Positions 33,010 to 54,029 of a DNA stretch of 64,000 nucleotides are shown piece by piece. Position numbers and translations under genes: made by a program. Within the stretch, counting starts at the first letter, position 1. Each line of letters opens with the position of its first letter. The notes under the pieces were generated by a model that ran no database searches, was not told the origin of the DNA, and saw only the letters and a list, made by a program, of their open reading frames with translations. The stretch covers positions 1 through 64,000 of the forward strand of contig JALHNZ010000011.1 in assembly GCA_022843265.1 (NCBI GenBank). The letters run 5' to 3'. Source of the DNA: Gemmatimonadaceae bacterium. GTDB taxonomy: Bacteria > Gemmatimonadota > Gemmatimonadetes > Gemmatimonadales > Gemmatimonadaceae.

Positions 33010-34443
33010 CTACAGAGACTTTGTTTTCCACGCCCCTCGCTTGAACAGCACGGCACTGACGATCGCCAGCACCGCGTATGCTACGGGCACCGCGATAAAC
33101 ACACCGCCTTCATCAAATCCCAGCGGTGAAGACAACAGCCACGCCAGTGGAATCTGTACAATCCAGAAACAGAAAAAGTTGATCCAGGTTGGTGTTCGGG
33201 TATCGCCGGCCCCGTTGAACGATTGTTCGAACACCATGCCTAGTGCATACGCGGGAAATCCAAGCCCAATCACGCGAAGCCCAAATACCGCCACGCGTGC
33301 CACGTCGGGTGATGACGTGAAGAGCGACACGAGCACGGGCGCAAACACCAGAAACACCACGCCAACGGAGCCCAGCAGCACCACGTTAATTTTCACCGCC
33401 GTCCATACACTGCGTTCTGCACGGTCCGGGAGCTTGGCCCCAAGTGACTGGCCGACCATCGTGGCCGCCGCCGCGCCAATGCCAAACGCCGGCATGAGCG
33501 CGAACAGGATGATGCGAATAGAAATCGTGTAGCCCGCCAACGCGGTGCTACCGAAACTTGAAACGATGCGCACAAGCGCGATCCAGCTCATCGAACTGAG
33601 CGCGACCTGCACCGTGCCCCAGCCCGAGAGCTGAGCGATGCTCCACATCGTGCTGGGTTCAATCGCCAGGTGCTGCCGACGCACGGCCAGATGTCCGGTG
33701 CCGCGCGTGAGTAGCACGAGCGCATACGCGAGACCAATACCGCGACCAATCGTGGTCGCGATGGCCGCACCAGTCAGTCCGAGTTCAGGAAACGGACCAA
33801 CGCCAAAGATCAGCATGGGGTCAAGCACAATGTTGATGCCGTTGCCAAGAATCAGCACGCGCATGGCAACGGCTGCGTCGCCCGCACCGCGGAATACGGC
33901 GTTCACGAGAAACAACAGAAACGCCGTAGCGCTGCCACCGAGGGTAACGCGCGCGTACATGGTACCCTGACTGAGCACCGTGTTGTCCGCGCCCATCAGC
34001 GTCAGTAGCTCCGGCGCCCAGATTGCGCCAACAACACACAACACCGTGGATAGGCCGAGGCCGAGCAATAACACCTGGACTGCCGCCCGGGCTGCACTGT
34101 CGCCGTCCTTTTCACCAATGCGACGCGCGACAGTGGCCGACGCGCCAATGCTCAGTCCGAACGCAATCGTATAGATCACGATCATCAGCGATTCGGTGAG
34201 TCCAACCGTTGCAACGGCAGCCGCGCCGAGTCGACTGACAAAAAACACGTCGACCACCGCGAAGATGCTCTCCATCGACATCTCAATGACCATGGGCAGC
34301 GCGAGCAACAGAATCGCGCGACCAATCGTGCCGCTGGTGTAGTCGTGAGAGGTACCGCGTAACGCGTCGCGAACATCGCGCCAGATTCCCGCGCCATCGC
34401 GGTTTGCAATTTCAGGCACGGTGGATTCGAGAGGGGAATGCAA
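33010..34443 (-). CDS. MATE-family multidrug efflux transporter
   Basis: 477 aa, 12 membrane segments in two six-helix halves. TSGTIGRAILLLALPMVIEMSMESIFAVVDVFFVSRLG is the N-terminal MATE signature; ARRIGEKDGDSA and GQSLGAKLPDRAERS are the cytoplasmic loops of each half. It exports cationic drugs or metabolites with proton or sodium influx. TTG 34443 is chosen because GAGG lies exactly 7 bases upstream; GTG 34419 has no such site. The gene begins directly after an intrinsic terminator within a structured 303-base leader, so expression is probably set by transcription attenuation. Confidence 0.93.
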   Translation of the reverse strand: MHSPLESTVPEIANRDGAGIWRDVRDALRGTSHDYTSGTIGRAILLLALPMVIEMSMESIFAVVDVFFVSRLGAAAVATVGLTESLMIVIYTIAFGLSIGASATVARRIGEKDGDSAARAAVQVLLLGLGLSTVLCVVGAIWAPELLTLMGADNTVLSQGTMYARVTLGGSATAFLLFLVNAVFRGAGDAAVAMRVLILGNGINIVLDPMLIFGVGPFPELGLTGAAIATTIGRGIGLAYALVLLTRGTGHLAVRRQHLAIEPSTMWSIAQLSGWGTVQVALSSMSWIALVRIVSSFGSTALAGYTISIRIILFALMPAFGIGAAAATMVGQSLGAKLPDRAERSVWTAVKINVVLLGSVGVVFLVFAPVLVSLFTSSPDVARVAVFGLRVIGLGFPAYALGMVFEQSFNGAGDTRTPTWINFFCFWIVQIPLAWLLSSPLGFDEGGVFIAVPVAYAVLAIVSAVLFKRGAWKTKSL

Positions 34444-34458
34444 GGGGAAACCTCGAGA

Positions 34459-34507
34459 GATCAAAAATGAAAATGCCCCGCCTGTTCGTAGTCGAAGCAG
34501 GGGGGGC
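34459..34507 (-). terminator. Intrinsic terminator inside the MATE leader
   Basis: Minus strand: GCCCCCCCTG (34507-34498) pairs with CAGGCGGGGC (34484-34475) with one mismatch. The 13-base loop contains an inner TTCG/CGAA stem, and the tail ATTTTCATTTTTGATC follows. It ends 16 bases before the MATE start codon, 5 bases before its ribosome site. The left arm overlaps an 11-base element that can pair instead with the leader fold, so it behaves like a switchable terminator. Confidence 0.8.
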
Positions 34508-34543
34508 GATTTGATCCTCGAGACGCAGCCGCGCGCGACTCGC

Positions 34544-34663
34544 CTACCAGAGGTGCCCTGCTTCGAGATGCAATGCACTGACCATCGCCGTGGCTACCAT
34601 GCGGTAGCGCACAGCCCGGTGTGACCGGGCGGCGAGAGAAGTGCTGCGAAGCAGGAAGTCCAT
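34544..34663 (-). CDS. Possible 39-codon leader peptide of the MATE gene
   Basis: ATG 34663 opens a 39-codon frame ending TAG 34544, in the MATE leader. The peptide begins MDFLLRSTSLAARSHRAV and is rich in Arg, with an R-Y-R at residues 19-21. The frame covers both strands of the closing helix of the leader fold. No ribosome site is visible before the ATG, and an open frame of this size can occur by chance in GC-rich DNA, so coding status is uncertain. Confidence 0.35.
   Translation of the reverse strand: MDFLLRSTSLAARSHRAVRYRMVATAMVSALHLEAGHLW
34557..34655 (-). promoter_or_regulatory. Structured MATE leader RNA: candidate riboswitch or attenuator
   Basis: On the minus strand the following helices nest: CCTGCTTCG (34655-34647) with CGAAGCAGG (34565-34557); GCACT (34644-34640) with AGTGC (34579-34575); TCGCC (34635-34631) with GGCGA (34589-34585). 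These close a junction with two hairpins, GCCCGGT-CAC-ACCGGGC (34630-34614) and CTACC-GCAT-GGTAG (34607-34594). The 3-prime strand of the closing helix can instead pair over 11 bases with 34502-34492, the left arm of the downstream terminator. This is the layout of a transcriptional riboswitch or ribosome-mediated attenuator. I do not recognise the class. Confidence 0.65.
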
Positions 34664-34746
34664 AGAACGAATACCGGAATCGGAGAAAACGGTTGACGCA
34701 GAATACTACGGCGACCGATCAGCCGAGGCAATCGGTGCTTTGTGGG

Positions 34747-35322
34747 TCACGTGACCCGGGTGGCGGCGCGGTCAACTGCTTCCTGGCGCCGCACAGCCTC
34801 TCGCCAGTCCACCGTTGGTGCCACGTCGTGATCGGCAAGCGACAAGCTGGCCAGTGCGCGTTCAATCACCGGTGCACCGAGCTCAGCGGGTAGGGCGTAG
34901 CCGAAGGCCAACTCGGCACGACGGCAGAGCCGCTCCTCGCGCGCCGAATCCCGACCGACGCGCGCAACACCCATGGCATGCACGCGTGCGTGCACACCTT
35001 CGTGCAGAATGGAACTCGCGACTGGTGCGGCACTAATGTCACGCCGCGCCAAAAACGTCAGTTCGGTGATGATGACGCGTTCATCCGGAATAAACGCGCC
35101 GCGACATGCAAACCGCTCAACGCGTATCGCCCGCACATCCCGCGCGAGGTGGCGTAGTCGCCATGGTTGATGTGCGTCGATGAGATCAAGGGCTTCGTGC
35201 AATCGCGTGAGCGCAGCGGTCGTGGTGATATCGGGCCGCGTGTTCAATACCTCGACCGTGATCCCGTGTTGCGTGACAAAATGCTGCCACTCGGCGTTCT
35301 CGCGACCGTGATCGTCAGACAC
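34747..35322 (-). CDS. Hypothetical protein with HExxH motif
   Basis: 191 aa, no signal peptide. SSILHEGVHARVH places a zinc-protease-type HExxH at residues 107-111; Glu129/Glu130 in REERLCRRAELAF could be the third ligand. No family name is recognised. The GTG start overlaps the E1-fusion stop by 8 bases (GTGTCTGA), so translation is probably coupled to the dehydrogenase. It could be an intracellular metalloprotease-like protein or a structural zinc protein. Confidence 0.75.
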   Translation of the reverse strand: MSDDHGRENAEWQHFVTQHGITVEVLNTRPDITTTAALTRLHEALDLIDAHQPWRLRHLARDVRAIRVERFACRGAFIPDERVIITELTFLARRDISAAPVASSILHEGVHARVHAMGVARVGRDSAREERLCRRAELAFGYALPAELGAPVIERALASLSLADHDVAPTVDWREAVRRQEAVDRAATRVT

Positions 35323-53920: not shown

Positions 53921-53976
53921 AAGTCTTCGTCCTTGTGCTACGGTAAAAGATTCTGCCTGCTTGTATTGTAAGACAC

Positions 53977-54014
53977 CGAAACGCCCGCCGCTGTTTCCAG
54001 CGGCGGGCGTTTCG
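53977..54014. terminator. Strong hairpin between dnaK and htrA
   Basis: A perfect 17-bp stem, CGAAACGCCCGCCGCTG / CAGCGGCGGGCGTTTCG, with a TTTC loop. It is located 15 bases after the dnaK stop. No real T tract follows on either strand (GTGTCTTAC on the minus strand), so it may act with Rho or protect the 3-prime end of the dnaK mRNA. Confidence 0.7.
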
Positions 54015-54029
54015 TGTACCGCTGGACGA

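Follow-up and report, generated by a model that had tools for sequence, protein, structure and literature searches.

A probable leader-peptide attenuator upstream of a MATE efflux gene in Gemmatimonadaceae

What decides whether this MATE efflux gene is transcribed? A leader of 303 nt lies on the minus strand between an upstream gene (stop near 34747) and the TTG start, at 34443, of a gene for a MATE efflux transporter (33010-34443, minus strand; TIGR00797, 271 bits against a cut-off of 147; PF01554, 208 bits). A sequence-only reading of this DNA had proposed that a transcriptional riboswitch or attenuator operates here, with a drug, a metabolite or the state of the ribosome as its input. The analysis presented here, which covered the 64-kb stretch of DNA containing the leader (the window) together with the genomes of relatives, leads us to regard the leader as very probably a ribosome-mediated (leader-peptide) transcription attenuator and not a ligand riboswitch.

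Layout of the leader

The 99-nt nested fold described in that reading is present with all its pieces on the minus strand, from 34655 to 34557. Its closing-helix sequence, CCTGCTTCG, does occur in two copies, at 34655-34647 (strand 1) and at 34501-34493 (within strand 3), which share one complement, CGAAGCAGG, at 34565-34557. This complement lies in strand 2, TCGAAGCAGGG (34566-34556), which, as had also been noted, is complementary over 11 bases to strand 3, CCCTGCTTCGA (34502-34492), the left arm and loop of an intrinsic terminator before the MATE gene (34463-34507; stem 34507-34498/34484-34475, followed by ATTTTCATTTTT; -19.9 kcal/mol). Strand 2 can pair either with strand 1, forming a protector helix (1:2), or with strand 3, forming an antiterminator (2:3), and strand 3 is in turn shared between the antiterminator and the terminator (3:4). 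Around the terminator, an outer stem (34451-34523) can form between TCTCGAGGATCAAA (34523-34510) and TTTTTGATCTCTCGAGG (34467-34451), with an energy of -36.5 kcal/mol including the terminator; the GAGG ribosome site of the MATE gene (34454-34451) lies inside this stem and would be hidden by it. As a whole, the leader folds at -129.4 kcal/mol, against a shuffle mean of -102.1 kcal/mol (z = -4.94), and none of 100 shuffles was as stable.

The earlier reading had overlooked a 39-codon upstream open reading frame (uORF) on the same strand, running from an ATG at 34663 to a TAG at 34544, which has counterparts at the same place in relatives and whose body makes up the fold between strands 1 and 2. 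It covers strand 1 with its first codons (3-6) and strand 2 with its final ones, which, judged from the sequence, is the classic geometry of a leader-peptide attenuator. A small hairpin, AGTCG-CGCG-CGGCT (34540-34527), follows directly 3′ of the uORF stop. The ribosome site of the uORF is weak (GGT), as is the candidate promoter, TTGCCT - 17 nt - TAGTAT (34731-34703), which has 8 of 12 consensus matches at a scan cut-off of 9/12 and from which transcription would start near 34697.

The window holds 27 terminator-like sites, and only at the one in the MATE leader does a uORF end shortly upstream in combination with a strong complementary strand. A simple terminator scan did not pick up this site, the loop and stem of which are probably beyond the limits of the scan. 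Elsewhere in the window, a strong hairpin at 53974-54018 resembles a terminator, carries T tails on either strand and is probably a shared bidirectional terminator.

Comparison across relatives

Orthologues of the MATE gene were found in 91 of 179 genomes of Gemmatimonadaceae. A nucleotide search with the leader DNA in 60 relatives gave no match, because the element diverges too fast, and the same architecture was found via the regions upstream of the MATE orthologues. A strong terminator stands just upstream of MATE in about 50 of the 88 orthologues with enough upstream sequence (49 of 88 by a fixed criterion, a strong terminator at most 130 nt from the MATE start, which overlooks some real leaders such as L005 and L011). 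Furthermore, among 51 distinct leaders that have such a terminator, 48 contain an ATG-started uORF of 9-60 codons whose end falls 58 to 19 nt upstream of the terminator (shuffles: mean 7.9, maximum 15), and in 39 of the 51 this distance is 40 to 27 nt (shuffles: 2.6, maximum 9). Over 1097 codons, the first, second and third codon positions of the uORF bodies have G+C contents of 0.64, 0.57 and 0.80, a coding-like pattern, as expected for genes of a G+C-rich genome, which gives indirect support to their being read as codons. GGTG/GGAG-like sites precede the uORF in 26 of 48 leaders, and many of the starts are preceded by GGTGCTTCG or CGGAGCA.

When 24 leaders of the type found in the window were aligned (A1), pairing in the antiterminator helix reached 92.9%, with changes on both sides at three pairs; the post-stop hairpin shows double changes at three pairs, with AGCGAC/GTCGCT, CGCGAC/GTCGCG and GCGGC/GCCGC among its variants in relatives, and the terminator likewise covaries. 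The covariation scores exceed those of all slid controls and of all 500 shuffles, which do not remove relatedness. Single exchanges run in both directions, from A-U to G-C (L098 and L108) and from G-C to A-U (L110 and L123), and in L007 the entire switch is re-paired (AGCACGGGAA/TTCCCGTGCT). In addition, strands 2, 3 and 4 read A-T-A in L025 and L134 where L127, L126 and L128 have G-C-G, a three-way change that is predicted by two mutually exclusive helices sharing strand 3. The comparison of MATE leaders among relatives, a check that the sequence-only reading had itself proposed, thus finds covariation in antiterminator, terminator and post-stop hairpin alike, and it backs the earlier suggestion that mutually exclusive pairing controls the MATE gene by transcriptional attenuation.

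The conserved parts of the leader are strand 2, the uORF stop, the post-stop hairpin and the terminator. The stretch from the uORF start to strand 2 extends from about 18 nt (between ATG and strand 2 in L033 and L084) upward, without a conserved core, and the uORFs range from 13 codons, in L033 (MDNTSRVEAGHLG), to about 50. A universal strand 1 was rejected, as only a minority of group A leaders have a strong complement to strand 2 near the beginning of the uORF or directly at it. Besides the window genome and L032, this applies to a minority of other leaders; in some cases the complement is GCTTCG, situated between the uORF start and its ribosome site. The closing helix (1:2) of the 99-nt fold is an add-on, strong in a minority of relatives, and the fold that it encloses is not conserved. 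T-rich tails follow the covarying GC-rich stem in most leaders. The outer stem, strong in the window, L005 and L033 and weak or absent in many relatives, receives moderate support from the comparison, with a group A average of -19.9 against -16.3 when shuffled and -17.6 when left and right halves are swapped between leaders. A number of further leaders (L016, L019, L030, L129, L132, L136, L138 and others) carry a variant strand, CACTGATCG, that overlaps the uORF stop codon; with less certainty, this variant seems to have as its partner a GGCGGCGCCG-type terminator, of which it pairs with the loop and the right arm.

When a covariance model (R1) was run on the 179 family genomes, every match with E < 1e-6 lay just upstream of MATE. 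These searches yielded no second target of R1: the weaker matches away from MATE that were read in the family, in the window's own genome and in the phylum, 21 loci of them singly, proved to be terminators behind ordinary genes or chance similarities. Across the phylum, terminators follow a stereotyped form, GCCCCxCCxGC...GCxGGxGGGGCGTTT (L171-L181, L213-L222), so that a terminator match alone says nothing on attenuation. The sister family f2, of the same order, is mostly without the element. Within the genus of the window, the leader is absent from L003 and L004, though their MATE is about 75-78% identical, and another coding gene directly adjoins MATE there, so the attenuator has been lost or replaced within the genus. 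In one genus of the sister family (L200, L204 and L211), very short ORFs (MRMRIVSH, MNPIFTTIVELF and MWTMPVCFSQSA, each followed by a stop) lie upstream of MATE without the terminator described here, and these possibly represent an unrelated leader-peptide control. In L192, the MATE start is immediately preceded by a tandem array of about eight CCGTTCCGA-like units.

Proposed switch, its input and alternative readings

In the mechanism that we propose, RNA polymerase would make a short leader on which a ribosome would translate the 39-codon peptide. A ribosome that reaches the stop would cover strand 2 and leave strand 3 free for the terminator (3:4), and transcription would end before MATE. 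If the ribosome were stalled or slow farther upstream in the uORF, strand 2 would be exposed as strand 3 emerges, 2:3 would form first, and the polymerase would read through into MATE. With no ribosome loaded, strand 1 could capture strand 2 in the window genome, which would favour the terminator (off), and in relatives without strand 1 an untranslated leader should be on. By enclosing the MATE ribosome site, the outer stem may in addition exert translational control, which suggests a second layer such as the one described for tlrB (PMC6851288).

Folding computed with a masked ribosome is consistent with this scheme. Before strand 4 emerges, the probability of 2:3 is about 0.96 as long as the ribosome occupies codons 1-28; it drops to 0.51 at codon 30 and to 0 over codons 32-40, for which the terminator forms in its place. 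In these computations, the antiterminator strand is masked by a ribosome that has arrived at the end of the uORF, but not by one farther upstream. In equilibrium folding the terminator beats the antiterminator, with a probability of about 0.9 in nearly all states, so the switch must presumably act kinetically, the antiterminator forming before strand 4 emerges. Without a ribosome, and again before strand 4, equilibrium favours 2:3 over 1:2, and the step by which an empty leader is switched off would therefore depend on 1:2 forming first.

Among the three inputs that had been named at the outset, the evidence picks the state of the ribosome. A conserved leader-peptide sequence was rejected, the peptides being alignable between close relatives only and without a third-position excess (L094/L095, L104/L106), and no conserved run of one codon was found in the uORFs of related leaders. 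Since the peptides show hardly any sequence conservation, neither the peptide nor any codon points to a particular signal; with neither a conserved peptide nor a codon run, a general failure of translation, typically caused by a ribosome-targeting antibiotic, is the likeliest input. The MATE pump would then probably be expressed only in response to faltering ribosomes, such as an antibiotic can cause, and we infer that its most likely inducers are antibiotics that slow or stall ribosomes. R-X-R motifs are known as sites at which macrolides can stall ribosomes. The window's uORF encodes Arg-Tyr-Arg at codons 19-21 (34609-34601), a weak pointer in this direction, and 17 of 48 uORFs contain an R/K-X-R/K motif, 26 times in total where residue shuffling leads one to expect 16.8 (P = 0.002, in a test chosen post hoc on related sequences). 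A more specific version, in which a Gemmatimonadaceae-specific attenuator family places MATE under the control of drug-stalled ribosomes, partly via R-X-R motifs, and the terminator stem also hides the ribosome site, is one that we put forward tentatively, as possible but doubtful.

Could the 99-nt nested fold instead be an aptamer through which a drug or metabolite chooses between antiterminator and terminator? Regulated transporters are often riboswitch targets, and the strong fold and mutually exclusive helices would suit such a device, but a search of Rfam 15 at gathering and permissive thresholds returned nothing relevant, in agreement with the earlier statement that the leader could not be matched to a named class. 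Moreover, the interior of the fold coincides with the body of an ORF whose length varies from 13 to about 50 codons and which has no conserved unpaired core, and the 13-codon uORF of one relative leaves no space for an aptamer. Covariation and the conserved uORF thus uphold the attenuator half of the earlier 'riboswitch or attenuator', whereas a uORF in place of the aptamer and the lack of a constant ligand-binding domain, together with the empty Rfam search, make the ligand riboswitch very unlikely. Even less credible is an ordinary terminator of the upstream gene accompanied by a chance complementary stretch and a chance ORF: GCCCCxCCTGC-type terminators are indeed stereotyped in these genomes and stand behind many ordinary genes, but the position of the uORF, the covariation of the antiterminator, the three-way compensation and the restriction of strong model matches to MATE leave hardly any room for this explanation.

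The anatomy of the leader is also that of classic amino-acid attenuators of the trp/ilv type, in which the peptide would sense a shortage of aminoacyl-tRNA (for example valine, threonine or arginine) and MATE would export a related metabolite, and Ala, Val, Arg and Thr are abundant in the uORF peptides (14.0, 11.7, 10.4 and 9.4%). We nevertheless consider this quite improbable, as no single-codon run is conserved, clusters of VV and of beta-branched residues are not significantly enriched (P = 0.07 and 0.11), and the short uORF of L033 has no such run. Control might, alternatively, be mainly translational, with the outer stem hiding the MATE ribosome site, uORF translation opening or closing it, and termination playing a minor part. 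The long outer stem with GAGG in the window, the similar pairing in L005 and L033 and the moderate average support in group A speak for such an arrangement, but the T-rich tails behind a covarying stem in most leaders, and the weakness or absence of the outer stem in many relatives, make it unlikely as the principal mode.

Significance and comparison with known systems

We found no report of a leader-peptide attenuator for MATE pumps or Gemmatimonadota in the open-access literature, and our verdict is that the probable leader-peptide attenuator before MATE is a new family of an attenuator type that is itself already known. If this is true, direct ribosome-sensing control of efflux would also exist in an abundant, poorly studied soil phylum and would extend to the MATE class; the compounds answered by the pump are predicted to be those that stall ribosomes; and the many variants of this compact element, with their evolutionarily re-paired switches, would lend themselves to the study of how attenuators keep working while their sequences change. 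Should the more specific drug-stall reading be true, no leader-peptide attenuator would have been described before for either a MATE pump or the phylum.

In the trp and his attenuators of enterobacteria, a 1:2 protector, a 2:3 antiterminator and a 3:4 terminator are combined with a leader peptide lying over strands 1 and 2. The MATE leader has this four-strand logic in common with them, but it lacks a regulatory codon run, most relatives have no strand 1, and the target is an efflux pump. In Pseudomonas aeruginosa, the PA5471.1 leader peptide controls PA5471 (armZ) and thereby MexXY efflux, and the likeness extends to a short leader peptide with downstream terminators, a proposed relief by ribosome-targeting drugs and an efflux pump as the final output (PMC12057347). 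There, however, attenuation acts on the gene of an anti-repressor that serves an RND pump, whereas the attenuator described here lies directly before the MATE gene, in an unrelated phylum and with other peptide and RNA sequences. Antibiotic-responsive attenuation in the leader of a resistance gene is also described for VmlR of B. subtilis and MsrD of streptococci (PMC9226507, PMC10314930), where the attenuators control ABC-F ribosome-protection factors. Finally, the tylosin-induced tlrB (yxjB) leader of Bacillus subtilis combines an RYR leader peptide, a terminator and a hairpin that hides the ribosome site of the resistance gene (PMC6851288), and the MATE leader resembles it in its R-X-R (RYR) motif, its terminator and a stem that may hide the ribosome site. 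In tlrB, the RYR motif is C-terminal in a peptide of 9 aa and the terminator is blocked directly by the stalled ribosome, whereas the MATE leader has a separate antiterminator (2:3) and a longer peptide, in which the motif is internal and not universal.
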